From a virus: a stretch of 64,000 nt of DNA. The stretch spans positions 1-64,000 of the IMG/VR virus record IMGVR_UViG_3300013286_000012; one strand, written 5' to 3'. Below, in pieces: positions 2,939 through 27,914 of this stretch. Positions within the stretch are counted from its first letter, which is position 1, and the number at the start of each line of letters is the position of its first letter. Both the position numbers and the translations under genes were made by a program. The notes under the pieces were generated by a model. The model was not told where the DNA came from. It saw nothing but the letters and a program-made list of their open reading frames with translations, and searched no databases.

Positions 2939-3487
2939 TTACTTGCATTGTTCTTTGGTTAAGAATGGGCCTGAAGTATTGGCGTCTATCTTTTCTGCAA
3001 TCTTGAGAGCAGCAAGTGGCTTAGCGCCAGCATGAAGGGCGCCGATAGCGTAAGAAGAGCCAGAACCTACTCCGTAGATGCCGTCATCGCTCATGCAGAT
3101 AGAGCAATCATCTGCAACATCAAATACCTCACCGCAGACTGCAATCAGGAAGTTAAATCGAGAATCATCGCCTTTTCCATCGCCCTTACCCTCATTGAAT
3201 TCGTAACCGTTCTCTGTTAAGCATTTTCTAAGAGAAGGCATTACTTTTACAATCATAAAATGATAAACATCTTGGCGGTCTTTTGGTGAAGGTTTTGGCG
3301 GAATCCAAATGTGCTGAGCAATATCACAAGGTCCTACTTCTCCAGAACCCGCAATAAGGTAATCGCCACGTTCTGTAATCTTTTCCATCTTTGGATGGTG
3401 GTAGATGCGGCCGTCGTCACCAGTTACTTGATTGTCGGCAGCAAAAAGTACTTTGTCGTCGTATTGAACGGCTACAATCGTTGTCAT
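2939..3487 (-). CDS. HslV/proteasome-beta-like Ntn hydrolase
   Basis: A 182-residue protein. The ATG at 3487 is chosen because AGGGGG lies just before it; a GTG two codons upstream is the alternative. The N-terminus MTTIVAVQYDDKVLFAADNQ places a Thr directly after Met. After Met removal this Thr would be the catalytic Thr1, with Asp17 exactly in place and a Lys (EKI) near position 33-35, the classical proteasome/HslV triad. SGSGE and, later, GVGSGSSYAIGAL match the HslV GSGG-YAL-A region. The length is typical of HslV (about 175). HslV normally needs the HslU unfoldase, which is not visible here. Possible roles: degradation of host proteins, or prohead-type proteolysis. Its neighbours are lysis genes. 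Confidence 0.75.
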   Translation of the reverse strand: MTTIVAVQYDDKVLFAADNQVTGDDGRIYHHPKMEKITERGDYLIAGSGEVGPCDIAQHIWIPPKPSPKDRQDVYHFMIVKVMPSLRKCLTENGYEFNEGKGDGKGDDSRFNFLIAVCGEVFDVADDCSICMSDDGIYGVGSGSSYAIGALHAGAKPLAALKIAEKIDANTSGPFLTKEQCK

Positions 3488-3561
3488 ATCCACCCCCTAA
3501 TAAAGAACCTCCCAAGGATACCATCAGGTACCCGTGGAGAATCTTAAGTCAGAAATGTCCG

Positions 3562-13943: not shown

Positions 13944-14819
13944 ATGTCAACATCTCTATTCGTACCAACGCTCGAATCAACATCGCACTACATTCCACGA
14001 ACCTTCTCTGGTGGAATTGGTGAGTATCAAGCCTTTGACTTTGCATCAGATAACAACATGAACGTGTTGTCAGAAGGTGCAACTGGAACTGGTAAAACTT
14101 CTGCGGTGCTTTCGTATTGCGCCCAACGTCACTTGAACTTCTTTGCTGTTCCTTGCAACTCTGCAATCGACTTCACTCAGGTGATTGGTGGACTCTTTCC
14201 AAACGCTGACGGCAAACTCGAATGGGTTGACGGCGGTATCACGAAGATAGTTCGTGAGGGCGGTGTGCTTCTCATTAACGAATTAAATAATGCGCCAAAG
14301 AACTTGTCGCAGTACCTCATGTCATTACTAGATGACCGACGTTCAATCACTCTCATGGGTCATGGAAACGAAGTTGTGAAGGCGCACCCAGACCTTCTCA
14401 TCATCGCTGACCAGAATCCTCACTATCGTGGAACACAACTTCTCAACGAAGCATGGAAAGACCGATTCGAAATCAAGTTGCGTTATGAATATGACAACGA
14501 GATTGAAAAGAAAATTGTTGCATCGTCATCACTTCTGGAACTTGCTAACGGAATGCGTGCAACTTCACGACAAAACGAATACGCATCAGCAGACCGAGGA
14601 ACAATCTTCGAGACACCAATCTCTCCACGACTTCTTAAAACATTCGAGAAGGTTGCAAAGGGATTGACATTCGAATTCGCTGTCGAGAACTTCATCAATA
14701 ACTTCACAGATGAAGAACGCCCTGCAGTCAAGATGCTTCTTGAAGGCGTTACATACAACATCAAGGAAGAACTCGGACTTGCTGTTGATTCAATTAAAAC
14801 CGAATACGCAAACGCTTAA
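13944..14819 (+). CDS. MoxR/CobS-like AAA+ ATPase
   Basis: 291 residues from the ATG at 13944 (MSTSLFVPTLES); an in-frame extension to 13860 overlaps the previous gene in another frame and is unlikely. Walker A GATGTGKT is at residues 45-52, Walker B VLLINELN at about 108-115 (E within LINE), a GHG turn and a HPDLLIIADQNP sensor region follow, then the arginine-finger region NEAWKDRFEIKL. This is the MoxR clade, whose members (CobS, NorQ, CbbQ, GvpN) remodel metal-enzyme or vWA partner proteins. The next gene encodes such a partner. CobS-like genes are known from T4-like marine phages. Confidence 0.8.
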   Translation: MSTSLFVPTLESTSHYIPRTFSGGIGEYQAFDFASDNNMNVLSEGATGTGKTSAVLSYCAQRHLNFFAVPCNSAIDFTQVIGGLFPNADGKLEWVDGGITKIVREGGVLLINELNNAPKNLSQYLMSLLDDRRSITLMGHGNEVVKAHPDLLIIADQNPHYRGTQLLNEAWKDRFEIKLRYEYDNEIEKKIVASSSLLELANGMRATSRQNEYASADRGTIFETPISPRLLKTFEKVAKGLTFEFAVENFINNFTDEERPAVKMLLEGVTYNIKEELGLAVDSIKTEYANA

Positions 14820-14828
14820 GGAGACATC

Positions 14829-16823
14829 GTGCAATACGGAGATGCAATTAAAGACTGGGAGTTAGAACTTCTAGGTGTAACTCGCAAAGAGATTGAAGAG
14901 CAGAAGGCTCGTGAAGAACTCAAAAAGCAGAAATTAGAACGTTTCACACAATTCTTCGGGCGTGTTAATTCTGCATTCACATTCCGCAAGGTGACTGTAA
15001 AGATTGAAGATTCACAGTTATCTGCACCAGCATGGTCAACAGCATCAGAAGTTACTTTCAATTCCAGAATGATTGAAGAACTTGATTCTGCTCGTGCTAT
15101 CGCTGGCATCAAGGGTCTAGACCTTCACGAGATATCACATATCCTTTACACATCTCGTGAGGGTTCAGAACTATTCGATTACGTCAAGGAGAATAAATTC
15201 TTCATGGCGTATAACTGCTTGGAAGATTCCAGAATTGAATTCCTCTTTACATCGAAGTATCCGTCAACGATTGATTGGTTCACATCAACTATCTTGATTC
15301 ACTTCGTTGATAAGCCAAATGCATTCAATACCTCATATCCGTTGCTATGCGGTCGCAGATATCTTCCTGTTGAATTGCGAGCCCGTTCTCGTAATGCATA
15401 CCCACATCAACACCTTGTCGACGATATCTCTGATGTCGTTACTCAATATCGTTCACTTATCTTTCCTGCTGATACTGATAAAGGAAAAGAACTCATCGCC
15501 AAATTCCACGACCTGCTACAGCAGACTGGTGACGATTCTGGTGAGGGCGAAGGAGAGGGCGAGGGCGGTACTGGTACAGGCAAGGTTCGTATCTCACAAG
15601 GCGCAGGAGAGGGCGATACAGTCGTTCGTATCTCTGACCCATTCGGACATGGCTCACGTCCACATGAGGGCTTGGAAACCTCTGCACAGTCACGACCACA
15701 ACCAGCACGCAAGCAAGCCAACGACTTGAAGCGTGCGCTCGATAACGATTCAGTCGACGATAAAGAATTCGCTGAATCACTCAAAGATAAAAACGTCATT
15801 GATATAGATATTAATGACATTGAATTCGATGATGCAGATGATTCTGATTCAGATAATTCTGATGCAAATACTTCTGGCGATTCTGATTCAAATGATTCTG
15901 GTGATTCAACTGGTGGTGATTCTGCTAGTGATTCTGCTGGCGATATCGTTAACACATTAATTGACAATCTTCTTGAAGATATTCTCAACGATGCAGATAA
16001 CGTCAAAGAATTAAACGACACTCTTCGACAACTTGGTGGACTCACTTCTCTTTCTACCAATAAATCAAAAGAGCCAGAGTTAAATCGTTATCACTCGCTC
16101 ACACCAGATGCAGATACATTTCACGCATCACTTGCATTCGGTCGTGAACTTGAACGCTTGCGTGCAACGTTCGACCCTGCTTGGGATAAATACCAATCAC
16201 AAGGTCGTATCGATGCACACAGGTATCTTCGTGGCGATGAACTCGACACAGTATTCGACCAATGGAATGAAGGTCGTGAAGATGCAACTGAGATTGAATG
16301 CGTTATCGCACTCGATGTCTCTGGTTCGATGTCTGGCAAGAAAGCAACGAATGCATATCGTGCGATGTACGCAATCAAACGTGCGCTAGATAGAATCGAT
16401 GCAAACTGCACAGTCATTACATTCCACGACAGCACCCACGTTCTCTATCGTGCAAAGGATAAGGCTGGCGCACAGATTCGAGATGCTGGTACTGGTGGTG
16501 GAACTGTTGCAACTGATGCAATCACCTACGCAACTAAGTTACTTGCTGAAACTGAAAAACCAGTACGTCTCTTCGTTGCAATTACTGACGGCGAATGGTC
16601 TGGCAATCAAGATGTAAATCACGATGCAATCAAGCGCATGAGTAATGCTGGTGTGCTTACAGCACTTGCATTTATTCCAGATACAGATTCATCAATCACA
16701 CTCAACGACGAGAATTCACATCATTGTGAAATTCGTGAAGTGGTTCGTAACCCAATCGACCTCATCGGGTTGGTTCGTTCAATCGTTAAATACGGAGTCA
16801 ATCGTCGATTGATTTCTCACTAG
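14829..16823 (+). CDS. CobT-like vWA protein with HExxH motif
   Basis: 664 residues with a GTG start at 14829 behind AAGGAGA. Residues 100-104 read HEISH in LDLHEISHILYTS, a zinc-protease-like HExxH, followed by CLEDSRIEF about 30 residues on, which could give the third ligand. A low-complexity Gly/Glu and Asp/Ser-rich linker (residues about 235-375) leads to a C-terminal von Willebrand A domain with the MIDAS motif DVSGS at Asp496, a later TGGGT and an ITDGEW motif. An acidic linker plus C-terminal vWA next to a MoxR ATPase matches the CobS/CobT pair of aerobic cobaltochelatase; the large CobN subunit is not present here. A general chaperone-like pair is the alternative. The Asp/Ser-rich region creates a long false frame on the other strand. 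Confidence 0.75.
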   Translation: MQYGDAIKDWELELLGVTRKEIEEQKAREELKKQKLERFTQFFGRVNSAFTFRKVTVKIEDSQLSAPAWSTASEVTFNSRMIEELDSARAIAGIKGLDLHEISHILYTSREGSELFDYVKENKFFMAYNCLEDSRIEFLFTSKYPSTIDWFTSTILIHFVDKPNAFNTSYPLLCGRRYLPVELRARSRNAYPHQHLVDDISDVVTQYRSLIFPADTDKGKELIAKFHDLLQQTGDDSGEGEGEGEGGTGTGKVRISQGAGEGDTVVRISDPFGHGSRPHEGLETSAQSRPQPARKQANDLKRALDNDSVDDKEFAESLKDKNVIDIDINDIEFDDADDSDSDNSDANTSGDSDSNDSGDSTGGDSASDSAGDIVNTLIDNLLEDILNDADNVKELNDTLRQLGGLTSLSTNKSKEPELNRYHSLTPDADTFHASLAFGRELERLRATFDPAWDKYQSQGRIDAHRYLRGDELDTVFDQWNEGREDATEIECVIALDVSGSMSGKKATNAYRAMYAIKRALDRIDANCTVITFHDSTHVLYRAKDKAGAQIRDAGTGGGTVATDAITYATKLLAETEKPVRLFVAITDGEWSGNQDVNHDAIKRMSNAGVLTALAFIPDTDSSITLNDENSHHCEIREVVRNPIDLIGLVRSIVKYGVNRRLISH

Positions 16824-16831
16824 TTCAAAGG

Positions 16832-16855
16832 TGGGGCGCATGAGGGTGCGCCCCA
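16832..16855 (+). terminator. hairpin after the AAA+/vWA genes
   Basis: TGGGGCGC (16832-16839), an eight-base loop, then GCGCCCCA (16848-16855): a perfect GC-rich stem just downstream of the vWA stop. The following bases (tttactact) are only weakly T-rich, so termination may be partial. Confidence 0.5.
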
Positions 16856-16887
16856 TTTACTACTTCAAACAAAAAGGAATCTAACAA

Positions 16888-17514
16888 ATGAAATTTACAG
16901 AACTTACAGTAGGTACAACATACGCAGTCATTCCGTCATGGGATTATTCATCAGCAGATAAGAAGAACGCAGATACAGTTCAACGTCGCTCTGTTGCAAA
17001 GGCAGAGTTAATCTCACTTGATAAATATCAATACGAAGTATTTCGTAGCGAGACAGTTGACCACCCACAATTCAAACCAGCACCAAAGGGTTCTCGTGCT
17101 GTTGGTTATCTTGTCTCATCAACCGACTGGGCTGATGCAAGCGACCCAAATAAAAAAGTTTTCTGGCTTGCACGTCCACAGGACATCGTTGCTGAATACT
17201 CCACACTCGAATCTCGTTGGGCTATTGAAGAAGCCGAGGAAGCACGCAAGAAGGCTGAACAGGAGGCTCGTAGAGTAGAAGAAGAACGCATTGAACGTGA
17301 GGCTCATGCTTATGCTGAGCGCATCGTTACTTCATGCACCGAAGTTCTTACTTCAATTCTTGGTGACCGAATCAAGAACGTACGAGGTGAAGTAACTCGC
17401 AAACGTGACATGACTACAGGTAACTATCTTCCTTGCGCCGAGTTCACTATCGACGGACGAACTATGCAATATCTTGCAGAAAAGATTCTAGAAGCACAGG
17501 ACTTGGTGGCATAA
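16888..17514 (+). CDS. hypothetical protein with central coiled coil
   Basis: 208 residues. The N-terminal 100 form a mixed domain (VGTTYAVIPSWDYSS..., VFWLARPQDIVAEY), residues about 105-150 a charged coiled coil (EEAEEARKKAEQEARRVEEE) and the C-terminal 55 an alpha/beta region. AAAAGGA precedes the ATG. No family was recognised; an association with the vWA/AAA+ pair is possible by position only. Confidence 0.65.
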   Translation: MKFTELTVGTTYAVIPSWDYSSADKKNADTVQRRSVAKAELISLDKYQYEVFRSETVDHPQFKPAPKGSRAVGYLVSSTDWADASDPNKKVFWLARPQDIVAEYSTLESRWAIEEAEEARKKAEQEARRVEEERIEREAHAYAERIVTSCTEVLTSILGDRIKNVRGEVTRKRDMTTGNYLPCAEFTIDGRTMQYLAEKILEAQDLVA

Positions 17515-23701: not shown

Positions 23702-25753
23702 TTACTGGTTATCTTTAATTAACCGTACTTCGCAAGCATCAGTGGTGCAGTAAGCCTCACCAATAGCATCAGCAGCCATTCCAGCATAGACACCAGTTAA
23801 ATCAATAGGGAACAACTTCATAACTCCATCGTTCTCATATTCTTCGGCAGTAATCTGTGTGTACGGCATCTGTGGGTAAACAGCATTACCAGAAGGTAAG
23901 AATGAAACAGTCTTAAGTTGACCGTCATACATATGCAAAGCCGTACCAATAGCCGAAGCCTCTGTTGTTGGGTCAAAAGAAATAGTTACGGAGACAGAGT
24001 TGTCTGACCAGTAGCGTTGAGCGGTAGCAGCGAGTGCCATCTTCTCGTAGATACTGACATCCTTCTCACTGCGCTTTGCTTCTGACTTGATAGGGAAGAA
24101 GACAACGCTAGTCGTATCAGGAGATTCGCTTGCTGGTTCTACTCTGTAGTTTGCCAACTTAAAGAGTGGCAGCATCGGGTCAGAGTTAGCAAAACGAATT
24201 GCACGGTTGAAGTACTCACCGCCAACAGTCCAGTGAACTCCAGGGCTCTCGCCTGCAAGAATACTTACTGTGCCTGATGGTTTAACAGTTGTCATCTTGA
24301 TGGATTCACGGATACCAAGCCACTCAGAGTACGAGGTGTCATACGCCTTGATGGTCTTATATCCCTCGTCCATCCATGTGCGAAGAATTGGAAGACCACG
24401 GTTATCTGCAAAGTTTGCTACCCCTGATACAGATGTACCGATGCGACGATTACGCTGCATGATTGCATTTGTTTCTTCCCAATGAGTTGGAAGGAGAGTC
24501 ACTGTCTTTGCATACAGGTATGCAAACTTTAATGTGCGCTTAAAATCATCTAAATCTTTGTGACGGTTTAAATACGTCTCAACCAACGTACAGCACTCAT
24601 ACGATTCAAGTGATTGCTCAGCACACGGGTTGTAACCAGAAATGCGCCAATCCCTGTTGTTGATTGGGTCAGAAAGTCGACCATATTGCTTTGAGATATC
24701 CATCCAAATAACTCCAGGCTCACCGTTGTGCGCAATGCCTTCAATAATGTTATCTAAGTTGTCACCTACATTAACAGCCACAGAATTATTTGACATCCAT
24801 GCCCAGCCTGGACTTGCTGGATTGTAAGAGTTTCTTTCTGGAAATTTATCTGCGTTCTTTAAATTAAGAAACTCTTGGTCATCTATGCGACCAATTAGTA
24901 ACTCTGCAGAACGACGTACATTGCCAGAAACAACGCATACGCCGATAAGATTGCCAATATCAGCAATGTCGATTCGAGTAAGTTTTTGCCCACCGCGACC
25001 AGCAAAGATTTGAATGATGTAGTTGTGGAGTTTGATAAGAGGTTCGGGCCCTGCTGCTGTTCCGCCAAAAGTGCGAATATGCTCCCCTGCTTTGCGTATT
25101 TTCGAATAGTCAAAGACAGGAGTTTTCGTGTCTGGCTTGAGGTAGGCGTTAATGAGAAGTGCTGTTGATTCGACCCACCCCTCTCTGGTATCTGGAATGA
25201 CATACGCTTCTCCTTGTTGTGGGTCGTAAATAGTGAAGTCTTTATCCGCACCCCTATCGTCAAATCCTACTCCAACACCCAGCATGGATGCCTCCATGAG
25301 GAAAGCAAACGGTTTGGCTGGCTCAACCTTATTCATGGAGCCAGTTGATACAAAAGCACAGTTCTGCAGCGCTGCCGAGTTACGCTCCTTATTTACGATG
25401 GCTGTACCCATCACCCAGAGTCCACGACCTGGGGGTGTCCACTTCAATTCAAAAAGGCGGTCAAAGGCTTCCTTGGCAGAGGAGGCTGCCTTGGCATCAG
25501 ACCATGGCAGGCGGTTAGTCTTGGCGTGGTCTTTCTGTAGTGAGTACATTCCGTTAATGACTCTCTCGCATACGTCTGTCCACGTCTCCTTAGTACCATC
25601 TTCCTTAATACGTGAATAGGTTCTGAGAAAAGTAATCTCTCCTACTGAATTTCCTGCTGCATCTCTGTATCCGAATGGTGCAGTCTTGCTTCTGTATGGC
25701 GCCACAAAATCTTCGGCTAACTTAAATGAGAATAATGACATAACCCCTACCAT
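23702..25753 (-). CDS. nrdJ: class II (B12-dependent) ribonucleotide reductase
   Basis: 683 residues (679 if the ATG at 25741 is used; the upstream ATG lacks a clear binding site). WTPPGRGLWVMGT, GGTAAGPEPL, LIGVCVVSGNVRRSAELL, NPCAEQSLESYECC with the thiyl-radical cysteine, TVKPSGTVSIL and a C-terminal CTTDAC pair mark the monomeric adenosylcobalamin-dependent ribonucleoside triphosphate reductase of Lactobacillus leichmannii type. It reduces ribonucleotides to deoxyribonucleotides without oxygen or a second subunit but needs coenzyme B12 from the host. The C-terminal Cys pair relays electrons from thioredoxin; no phage thioredoxin is visible. A gene of this kind feeds phage DNA synthesis. 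Confidence 0.9.
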   Translation of the reverse strand: MVGVMSLFSFKLAEDFVAPYRSKTAPFGYRDAAGNSVGEITFLRTYSRIKEDGTKETWTDVCERVINGMYSLQKDHAKTNRLPWSDAKAASSAKEAFDRLFELKWTPPGRGLWVMGTAIVNKERNSAALQNCAFVSTGSMNKVEPAKPFAFLMEASMLGVGVGFDDRGADKDFTIYDPQQGEAYVIPDTREGWVESTALLINAYLKPDTKTPVFDYSKIRKAGEHIRTFGGTAAGPEPLIKLHNYIIQIFAGRGGQKLTRIDIADIGNLIGVCVVSGNVRRSAELLIGRIDDQEFLNLKNADKFPERNSYNPASPGWAWMSNNSVAVNVGDNLDNIIEGIAHNGEPGVIWMDISKQYGRLSDPINNRDWRISGYNPCAEQSLESYECCTLVETYLNRHKDLDDFKRTLKFAYLYAKTVTLLPTHWEETNAIMQRNRRIGTSVSGVANFADNRGLPILRTWMDEGYKTIKAYDTSYSEWLGIRESIKMTTVKPSGTVSILAGESPGVHWTVGGEYFNRAIRFANSDPMLPLFKLANYRVEPASESPDTTSVVFFPIKSEAKRSEKDVSIYEKMALAATAQRYWSDNSVSVTISFDPTTEASAIGTALHMYDGQLKTVSFLPSGNAVYPQMPYTQITAEEYENDGVMKLFPIDLTGVYAGMAADAIGEAYCTTDACEVRLIKDNQ

Positions 25754-25923: not shown

Positions 25924-27426
25924 TTATTTTTCAATAGACTCGGAAATAATCTTGGTAACAGTCTCTTCTCGAAGCGTTTCTGGTAATTCTTTTAGCGCTT
26001 GAGCACGGTCTCCAAAGATGGCAGAAAGCACTCCACCAGAAGATTGTCGTTGCGCTGTAATCTGAATGAACTCCTTATTGGTATCCATGTCCTTAACTTG
26101 ACCAACCAATTTATACAGTCTATCGATTTCTTGCGAGAGGTTAGGGTCTGCATAACCTCCATTCATTTCTTCTGCAAAACGCATAAAAGCCACTCTTTGA
26201 CCCTGCATTTCAATGATTGCAGTAAGCAAAGATTTTAATTGCTCTTTAGTTTTAACTTCAATAGGAAGGTTAAACGCACACATATTGTCTGGTTTAAATG
26301 CTGGGCAATTGCTTGCAACAAAACAGGTGTTGCATTGTCGAAGAGAAGATTGTTGGTTATTGATGACTGGAACATCTTGCAAAATGTCTTTGCCGTTTTC
26401 ATCTTGTTCAACTATCGTCTTCATCTTTACGCCAAAAACAGGAAGGTTCTGTATTTCTTCGGGGTCTCTTGGAACTACTTTATTGGGCTCTTGTTTCCGC
26501 ACTGGCACGTCACTGTTATCAGAAGCGGGAGTTTCAAATCCCATTAAACCTGTTAAGAAGGTATCGCTATTATCAGGTAAGTTCTCACCTTTACCACCTT
26601 CAATAATATGAAAATCAGGTGTCTTCTTATCCATTGATGTCTCCAACTGTTGGTATGACCAGACGGCAACTCTAGTCGCTTCAAGGGTACTATCTTGCAC
26701 GAAGTCTAAATAGTTTAATCCAGCCTTCTCCACCATAGCCTTATAACGGGGTCGTGCTTGGTCTTTCATTTTCTTTGGATAGCGGTTTAATTTGGTGCCA
26801 TCCCAAACGATAGTCTCGCCTCGTCTCATGGGTGAAAGCCAAGACAATGTACTGGCTGTACTAAATGGTATCTGTCTTAAATTGTCTGGCTTAGCACATC
26901 CAAGAGCATGGAACTGGGTCTTATATTGTCTGGAGTAACTTCGAGTTACGGCCGCCAAGTTAGTTACTGACTCAATCTCGTCATTAGGGATAGCCACATT
27001 CTTGTGGTCTTCGCACATCTTTCGGAGTGTTTGTTGTCCATATTCTTCATGCCAGATAACCCACAGTTTGGGGTCGTTATTGAAGAAGAAGCGCTGCTGC
27101 TCTATCCATTCATAGCCCAAAATTATTGAGTCAAATTCTAAAAAGGCTGTGGCTCGGTTTGCATTGTTGACAAGAAATTCTTGATAGTCGGCGGCTAAAT
27201 CAATAAGTTCTTGTTTTGACAGCCCAGCCTTTTCAGCCTGTGGAGCGCCTGATTCAATGAAAACCTTAGTCTCTGCATCAAAGTGTTCGCTTATAAGCCA
27301 ATTTTTAGTTTTAGGTAAGCCACGTTTACGGAGCCCCCAGTAGTTAAGCCCCATCGACTCAACTTTTAGTTTTTCGAGAAGGGTTCTGTTAGAGCCAACT
27401 TCAACTCCAGAAAAGATGAGATTCAT
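25924..27426 (-). CDS. TGT/DpdA-like TIM-barrel protein with Cys cluster
   Basis: 500 residues from the ATG at 27426 (TAATG overlap with the HAD-like gene). The first 290 residues show the order of tRNA-guanine-transglycosylase-like phage and DpdA proteins: KVFIESGAPQ (the DSGA-like loop, here ESGA), FLEFDSIILGYEW, LWVIWHEEYG, then FHALGCAKPDNLRQIPF with WLSPMRRGE. A disordered linker (residues about 290-355) leads to CNTCFVASNCPAF and a later Cys (residues about 362-380), probably a zinc or iron-sulphur site, then a helical end. The proposed role is a base exchange in nucleic acid; no 7-deazaguanine synthesis genes are in the window, so the substrate is open. Confidence 0.5.
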   Translation of the reverse strand: MNLIFSGVEVGSNRTLLEKLKVESMGLNYWGLRKRGLPKTKNWLISEHFDAETKVFIESGAPQAEKAGLSKQELIDLAADYQEFLVNNANRATAFLEFDSIILGYEWIEQQRFFFNNDPKLWVIWHEEYGQQTLRKMCEDHKNVAIPNDEIESVTNLAAVTRSYSRQYKTQFHALGCAKPDNLRQIPFSTASTLSWLSPMRRGETIVWDGTKLNRYPKKMKDQARPRYKAMVEKAGLNYLDFVQDSTLEATRVAVWSYQQLETSMDKKTPDFHIIEGGKGENLPDNSDTFLTGLMGFETPASDNSDVPVRKQEPNKVVPRDPEEIQNLPVFGVKMKTIVEQDENGKDILQDVPVINNQQSSLRQCNTCFVASNCPAFKPDNMCAFNLPIEVKTKEQLKSLLTAIIEMQGQRVAFMRFAEEMNGGYADPNLSQEIDRLYKLVGQVKDMDTNKEFIQITAQRQSSGGVLSAIFGDRAQALKELPETLREETVTKIISESIEK

Positions 27427-27914
27427 TAATCTTGCCAAAATTCTAACGATTTAGGACTAGCAGCATCTTTGGATTTAGCAACGTTAACTCTATCAATAGC
27501 ATTTTCAATATCAGTCCATTTGCGTACCTTGCTAGGTGCATCAGGGCGACGCTCTACGGCAAGATAGCCTGGGTTCATAAACATGATGGTAGGAACACCT
27601 TGCTCTTCAAATACCCATGCACACATGGATGGGTCAGAGTCAACGTAGAGTTCTACTGGAGCCTTACTACGACTTATAATGAATTGACGTTTCTTTAAAT
27701 CTTCACCTTCAAGGTGGTAAGACGTGTCAATCAATTCATCATAGTTAATGATTCCGTGAGAGTGAAGCCAGTGTTTTGCATCCTCTGTATTGCGGGACGT
27801 TATGATTGCCACACGATTATTAATATTAAGGGCATAATAAAGCATTACTCCTGCACGGATAGGTTCCCCTGTATCCGAACTTAATACGCCATCTAGTGAT
27901 ACGAGTACGTTCAT
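27426..27914 (-). CDS. HAD-like protein, altered motif I
   Basis: 162 residues. MNVLVSLDGVLSSDTGEPI resembles HAD motif I (DxDG), but the first Asp, the usual nucleophile, is Ser (SLDGV). VAIITSRNTEDAKHWL supplies motif II (T/S), ISRSKAPVELYVDSDP suggests the motif III/IV region with VDSDP. The loss of the nucleophile suggests a non-catalytic or altered enzyme. It overlaps the TGT-like gene by one base and may work with it. Confidence 0.65.
   Translation of the reverse strand: MNVLVSLDGVLSSDTGEPIRAGVMLYYALNINNRVAIITSRNTEDAKHWLHSHGIINYDELIDTSYHLEGEDLKKRQFIISRSKAPVELYVDSDPSMCAWVFEEQGVPTIMFMNPGYLAVERRPDAPSKVRKWTDIENAIDRVNVAKSKDAASPKSLEFWQD

Follow-up and report, generated by a model that had tools for sequence, protein, structure and literature searches.

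A MoxR-type ATPase and a metallopeptidase-like vWA protein encoded as a pair in an actinobacterial-type phage, probably not a B12 enzyme

Introduction

Viral cobS and cobT are counted among the common auxiliary metabolic genes, and phage cobS (and cobT) genes are widely taken as cobalamin genes (PMC3037559, PMC2984593, PMC8651126). The literature holds two incompatible readings of such pairs, one as CobST working with the CobN of the host (PMC8651126) and the other as a MoxR chaperone with a peptidase-vWA partner (PMC7824862). The question is raised again by two adjoining genes in the IMG/VR record IMGVR_UViG_3300013286_000012, a virus record of 76,545 bases of which a part of 64,000 nt (the window; all coordinates refer to it) was analysed. 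The original prediction was that the two proteins have the layout of the CobS and CobT subunits of cobaltochelatase and share a theme of cobalamin supply and use with a B12-dependent ribonucleotide reductase of the same phage. The most likely role of the pair is to remodel or cut proteins in the course of infection, and it is probably no B12 enzyme. The preferred reading, given a probability of about 0.7, is a MoxR AAA+ ring with a vWA adaptor bearing an N-terminal zincin-like metallopeptidase domain, which would cut the remodelled target.

Gene pair and genome context

The gene for the MoxR-type AAA+ ATPase (291 aa; 13944..14819, + strand; Pfam AAA_5 and PDB profile matches) is read from the ATG at 13944, preferred over an upstream TTG on the basis of a relative's own start. 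The gene for the metallopeptidase-like/acidic linker/vWA protein (664 aa; 14829..16823, + strand; ORF, Pfam, and AlphaFold) has a GTG start at 14829, separated from the end of the ATPase gene by 9 nt and preceded by an AAGGAG ribosome-binding site. Relatives were gathered from 80 loci on viral contigs and 2 in bacterial genome bins; the two genes adjoin in nearly all of them, with gaps of mostly a few nucleotides. The vWA-protein relatives in the bins (Thiotrichales and Propionibacterium MAGs; L089:9941-11956 and L090:2082-3683) are possibly from prophages. Among the genes of the phage are those for WhiB, for the sheath and baseplate of a contractile tail, and for an adenosylcobalamin-dependent RTPR; the WhiB gene and the related Gordonia/Brevibacterium phages are consistent with an actinobacterial host.

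A hairpin (16828..16860, + strand; -23.2 kcal/mol) lies 3' of the two-gene unit, in the gap that separates it from the next gene. It carries no U-tract and is possibly a terminator or processing site. Many relatives also have strong hairpins at this position, differing in sequence, and in some of these another hairpin (GTCAC...GTGAC) lies upstream. The next gene (16888..17514, + strand) encodes a 208-aa protein and follows the pair immediately in most relatives: a similar gene was found at 72 loci, at 71 of them, the window included, no more than 260 nt from the vWA stop. The 208-aa protein matched neither a PHROG family nor, above cut-off, any Pfam family, and may be a partner or substrate of the pair. 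Elsewhere in the window, a gene at 2939-3493 encodes an HslV/proteasome-like peptidase (PHROG 1040, 2.4e-27; Pfam Proteasome, 4.5e-5).

ATPase and vWA domain

The ATPase matches Pfam AAA_5 at 2.7e-19 and has a MoxR AAA+ core (AAA_5/MoxR, Walker A, catalytic Glu, sensor 1 Asn, and conserved Arg). Walker A is GATGTGKT at residues 45-52 (14076..14099, + strand; alignment of 81 relatives), and Walker B is LLINE at residues 109-113 (14268..14282, + strand; alignment of relatives). The catalytic Glu of Walker B is invariant. The usual Asp is replaced by Asn in the window ATPase and by either Asn or Gly in 64 of 80 relatives, which could weaken ATP hydrolysis. A PDB profile search returned Midasin at 3.6e-78 (an E-value summed over several repeats of one chain), NorQ at 2e-28, CbbQ at 3e-23, and CobS at 1.5e-10, and a single-sequence search of solved structures returned Midasin at 1e-49, NorQ at 2e-21, CbbQ at 5e-13, and CobS at 3e-4. 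By these sequence matches, the ATPase appears nearer to Midasin and NorQ/CbbQ than to CobS by many orders of magnitude.

The vWA protein has an acidic, low-complexity linker of low pLDDT at about residues 236-366 (15534..15926, + strand), with pLDDT <50 at residues 236-266 and 322-369 and a length that differs among relatives. The vWA domain, assigned by Foldseek, runs from residue 489 (16293..16823, + strand), and Pfam VWA_2 matches residues 492-589 at 6e-7. The MIDAS is made of DVSGS at residues 496-500 (16314..16328, + strand), T559 (16503-16505), and D587 (16587-16589); a 19-member alignment shows no variation at D496, S498, S500, T559, or D587. The two open reading frames, the MoxR-type ATPase, the vWA domain with its MIDAS Asp496, and the acidic linker are thus all as first described.

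In a Foldseek search, the predicted vWA fold matched MDN1-MIDAS (2e-6), Rea1 (1.6e-5), and NorD in NorQD (1.7e-5); CobT was not among the 50 matches listed for the full protein, in a library that may not include the 9uka-series CobT. Structural and profile matching favours Midasin and NorQ/CbbQ over CobS for the ATPase, and Midasin and NorD for the vWA fold. Midasin (Rea1/MDN1) is the best profile match of the ATPase as well as the best fold match of the vWA domain. It is a single giant polypeptide with six AAA modules, and to our knowledge it has no N-terminal peptidase domain.

N-terminal domain

The N-terminal zincin-like domain (residues 1-235; 14829..15533, + strand) was modelled by AlphaFold with a pLDDT of 91 and a pTM of 0.84. 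In this confident model, HEISH (HExxH; residues 100-104, on helix 88-107; 15126..15140, + strand) and LEDSRIE (LEDxRIE; residues 131-137, on helix 125-143; 15219..15239, + strand) lie on neighbouring helices. An HExxH with a second motif on a neighbouring helix is the arrangement expected of gluzincins. Glu132 of LEDSRIE, or a neighbour, is the candidate third zinc ligand; E132 is nearly invariant and is Asp in one clade. HExxH and the following [ED]DxR helix motif are kept in all 82 family members that retain the N-terminus, and HEISH is therefore not a chance occurrence. Among 53 aligned sequences, the sole invariant residues of the domain are H100, E101, H104, D133, R135, E137, and G175. 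The suggestion that HEISH at residue 100 points to a protease or another metal role is well supported by the conservation of the motif throughout the family.

A Foldseek search of the domain against the PDB gave no significant match: the top match was the minigluzincin selecase, weak at a probability of 0.60 and E of 0.8, and jannalysin was lower and also weak. No curated peptidase family was matched in Pfam. Viral predicted structures with the same N-domain fold include many that bear the name CobT or VWFA. The putative metallopeptidase domain DUF2201_N was considered as the source of the N-domain and rejected; the vWA protein has no Pfam match to it, and the sampled genomes held too few bacterial examples for a comparison.

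Viral relatives

The pair is a new member of an already described MoxR/metallopeptidase-vWA kind. Group 2.2 jumbo phages carry a MoxR chaperone whose vWA cochaperone is fused to a peptidase, ascribed to virion assembly (Iyer et al. 2021, PMC7824862), and the gene pair and domain order of the published description are the same as here; unlike the jumbo-phage pair, the window pair belongs to a 76.5 kb phage of actinobacterial type. The evidence favours this chaperone and cochaperone architecture over CobST.

The same layout, an HExxH and E-D-x-R-[IV]-[ED] N-domain followed by a vWA domain, is found in the pair of Kyanoviridae, T4-like cyanophages, and in Pelagibacter phage HTVC008M and Ochrobactrum phage OC. 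HExxH is present in 11 of 11 Kyanoviridae proteins named peptidase or CobT (the count includes MED4-213, listed as a Eurybiavirus without family) and in two divergent actinophage proteins, and the N-domains of the phage family and the cyanophages are homologous (97.7%, E 2e-12). In the regions examined, the cyanophage, Pelagibacter phage, and Ochrobactrum phage "peptidase" or "CobT" genes adjoin, or are one gene from, a MoxR gene named cobS. In Kyanoviridae the vWA gene comes first, the reverse of the order in the window.

The cyanophage-type partner is held by 463 phage records. The window pair is useful as an argument against the cobalamin interpretation of viral cobS/cobT, and if the partner is a metallopeptidase-vWA cochaperone, that interpretation needs revising for hundreds of phage records. 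It may be, and we put this forward tentatively, that much of viral cobS/cobT is an ATP-driven, vWA-gated metalloprotease machine, of which bacterial CobT would be a descendant that kept the architecture and lost the HExxH site.

Proposed mechanism and alternatives

In the preferred reading, the ATPase would form a hexamer with the vWA domain docked in its pore, as proposed for NorD in NorQ, and the MIDAS metal would grip an acidic residue of the target protein; the idea that a vWA finger enters the AAA+ pore, like that of the MIDAS capturing an acidic target residue, comes from work on NorQD (PMC9976466). ATP hydrolysis would then pull or remodel the target, and the tethered HExxH domain would cleave the exposed segment and so mature or inactivate it. 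For this machine we infer hexamer formation, docking, zinc binding, and proteolysis, the last because the HExxH and LEDxRIE motifs of the N-domain are conserved. Candidate targets are a phage morphogenesis protein or a host protein.

A version of the same machine that assembles and trims the structural proteins of the particle is possible, though the less likely reading. It was proposed for the jumbo phages by Iyer et al. 2021 (PMC7824862), who also report that a MoxR-vWA pair without a peptidase domain is needed for tail assembly in Acidianus two-tailed virus, and the window phage does have a contractile tail. However, the pair belongs to a + strand gene cluster that also contains WhiB and integrase, whereas those tail genes that could be identified lie on the - strand, from about 51 kb onwards. 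In the cyanophages and the Pelagibacter and Ochrobactrum phages, moreover, it is found among replication and recombination genes (gp46/47, sliding clamp, and clamp loader); Gordonia phages have it flanked by DnaB/primase genes on one side and SSB/DnaE genes on the other. Since the pair lies away from structural genes, host or replication proteins are possible targets too.

It is unlikely that the pair is a metal-handling chaperone, in which HExxH would bind metal without cutting and the target would be remodelled for cofactor insertion, as NorQ/NorD do for iron in nitric oxide reductase. After Midasin, the closest ATPases and vWA proteins do include NorQ/CbbQ, like the window ATPase, and NorD, with a vWA fold like that of the window protein. 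NorD also has an N-domain, a disordered linker, and a C-terminal vWA domain, and NorQD is needed for metal cofactor insertion, according to the portion of PMC9976466 drawn on here, which, in contrast to the window vWA protein, mentions no peptidase domain with HExxH in NorD. The catalytic Glu of HExxH is invariant, however, which plain metal binding would not require, and the pair has no known phage metalloprotein target that accompanies it across lineages; the B12 reductase does not do so.

Cobalamin reading

The remaining alternative is that the two proteins are CobS/CobT-like chelatase subunits that borrow the CobN of the host and raise cobalamin for the B12-dependent reductase of the phage. 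This has been published for archaeal tailed viruses, with CobST taken to borrow host CobN and the name "peptidase" called an annotation mistake (PMC8651126). CobS/CobT likewise combine a MoxR ATPase with an acidic linker and vWA domain, and have a similar ExxRxE in the N-domain. The vWA region does match CobT in a profile-profile comparison (96.6%, E 5e-10); the top PDB sequence match of the vWA protein is the 9uka CobT (4e-7), a match that takes in the acidic linker, and there is a partial CobT_C match in the vWA domain (22.8 bits against a cut-off of 21, covering 53 of 220 positions). The CobS/CobT layout of the original prediction holds for this region; as an identity it fails, for the window proteins miss the curated equivalog limits. 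The ATPase scores 16.8 bits against the CobS equivalog TIGR01650, with a cut-off of 558.55, and the Kyanoviridae ATPase, a more CobS-like branch, scores 61-95 bits, still far under that cut-off. The vWA protein has no match to TIGR01651 (CobT equivalog) at E ≤ 0.1 and none to the CobT N-terminal Pfam family at E ≤ 1.

Genuine CobT, scoring above the curated cut-off, was found in 35 of 150 genomes sampled from one phylum, and 20 CobT were examined. None of these 20 bacterial proteins has HExxH, a motif that the original prediction had not associated with CobT; the corresponding places hold H[DN]xxxH and, in almost every one, ExxRxE. When the phage N-domain is aligned with that of CobT, HExxH falls opposite HDxxxH and LEDxRIE opposite EQARVE, but the alignment lacks significance (probability 2%, P 0.02), and the match of the cyanophage N-domain to that of CobT is weaker than that of the window family, so that a common origin is only suggested. 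CobT works with CobN, and CobN (PF02514) was absent from all 29 pair-bearing records, which are the window's genome and 28 others. Nor was any B12-synthesis family found by Pfam among 60 window ORFs scanned; of the 12.5 kb that follow the window, a part was covered, by PHROGs. The hosts point the same way: Pelagibacter phage HTVC008M carries the pair, yet SAR11 bacteria are described as having no need of B12 and not producing it (PMC8552899). A recent survey assigned viral cobS to a SAR86 host not known for cobalamin biosynthesis genes (PMC12965618).

The reductase itself (23702..25753, - strand) was correctly identified as adenosylcobalamin dependent (TIGR02505, 360.9 bits against a cut-off of 340), although it had been placed "beside" the pair, loosely, at a distance of about 7 kb. 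It is not judged part of the system of the pair. It is present in 19 of the 29 pair-bearing records, the window's genome and close relatives among them, all from the window's own contig family. The ten without it are four Gordonia/Brevibacterium phages, four Kyanoviridae, and two contigs of the window's family; a class I small subunit is present in five of these ten, and a class I reductase was found in each of the four Kyanoviridae tested. A relative of the B12 reductase occurs in 1194 phage records, mostly of Mycobacterium and Streptomyces phages, neither of which is among the vWA hits of the pair. Outside one contig group, the pair and the reductase occur independently. The shared cobalamin theme is not upheld: the best matches of the ATPase and of the vWA fold are to non-chelatase proteins and CobN is absent, yet the reductase does use cobalamin. 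With the curated models failing, HExxH absent from all 20 CobT examined, CobN missing, and the reductase distributed independently, the chelatase reading is very improbable. The reductase gene is adjoined by a gene at 25924-27438 for a queuine tRNA-ribosyltransferase-like protein (PHROG 887, 6.7e-62).
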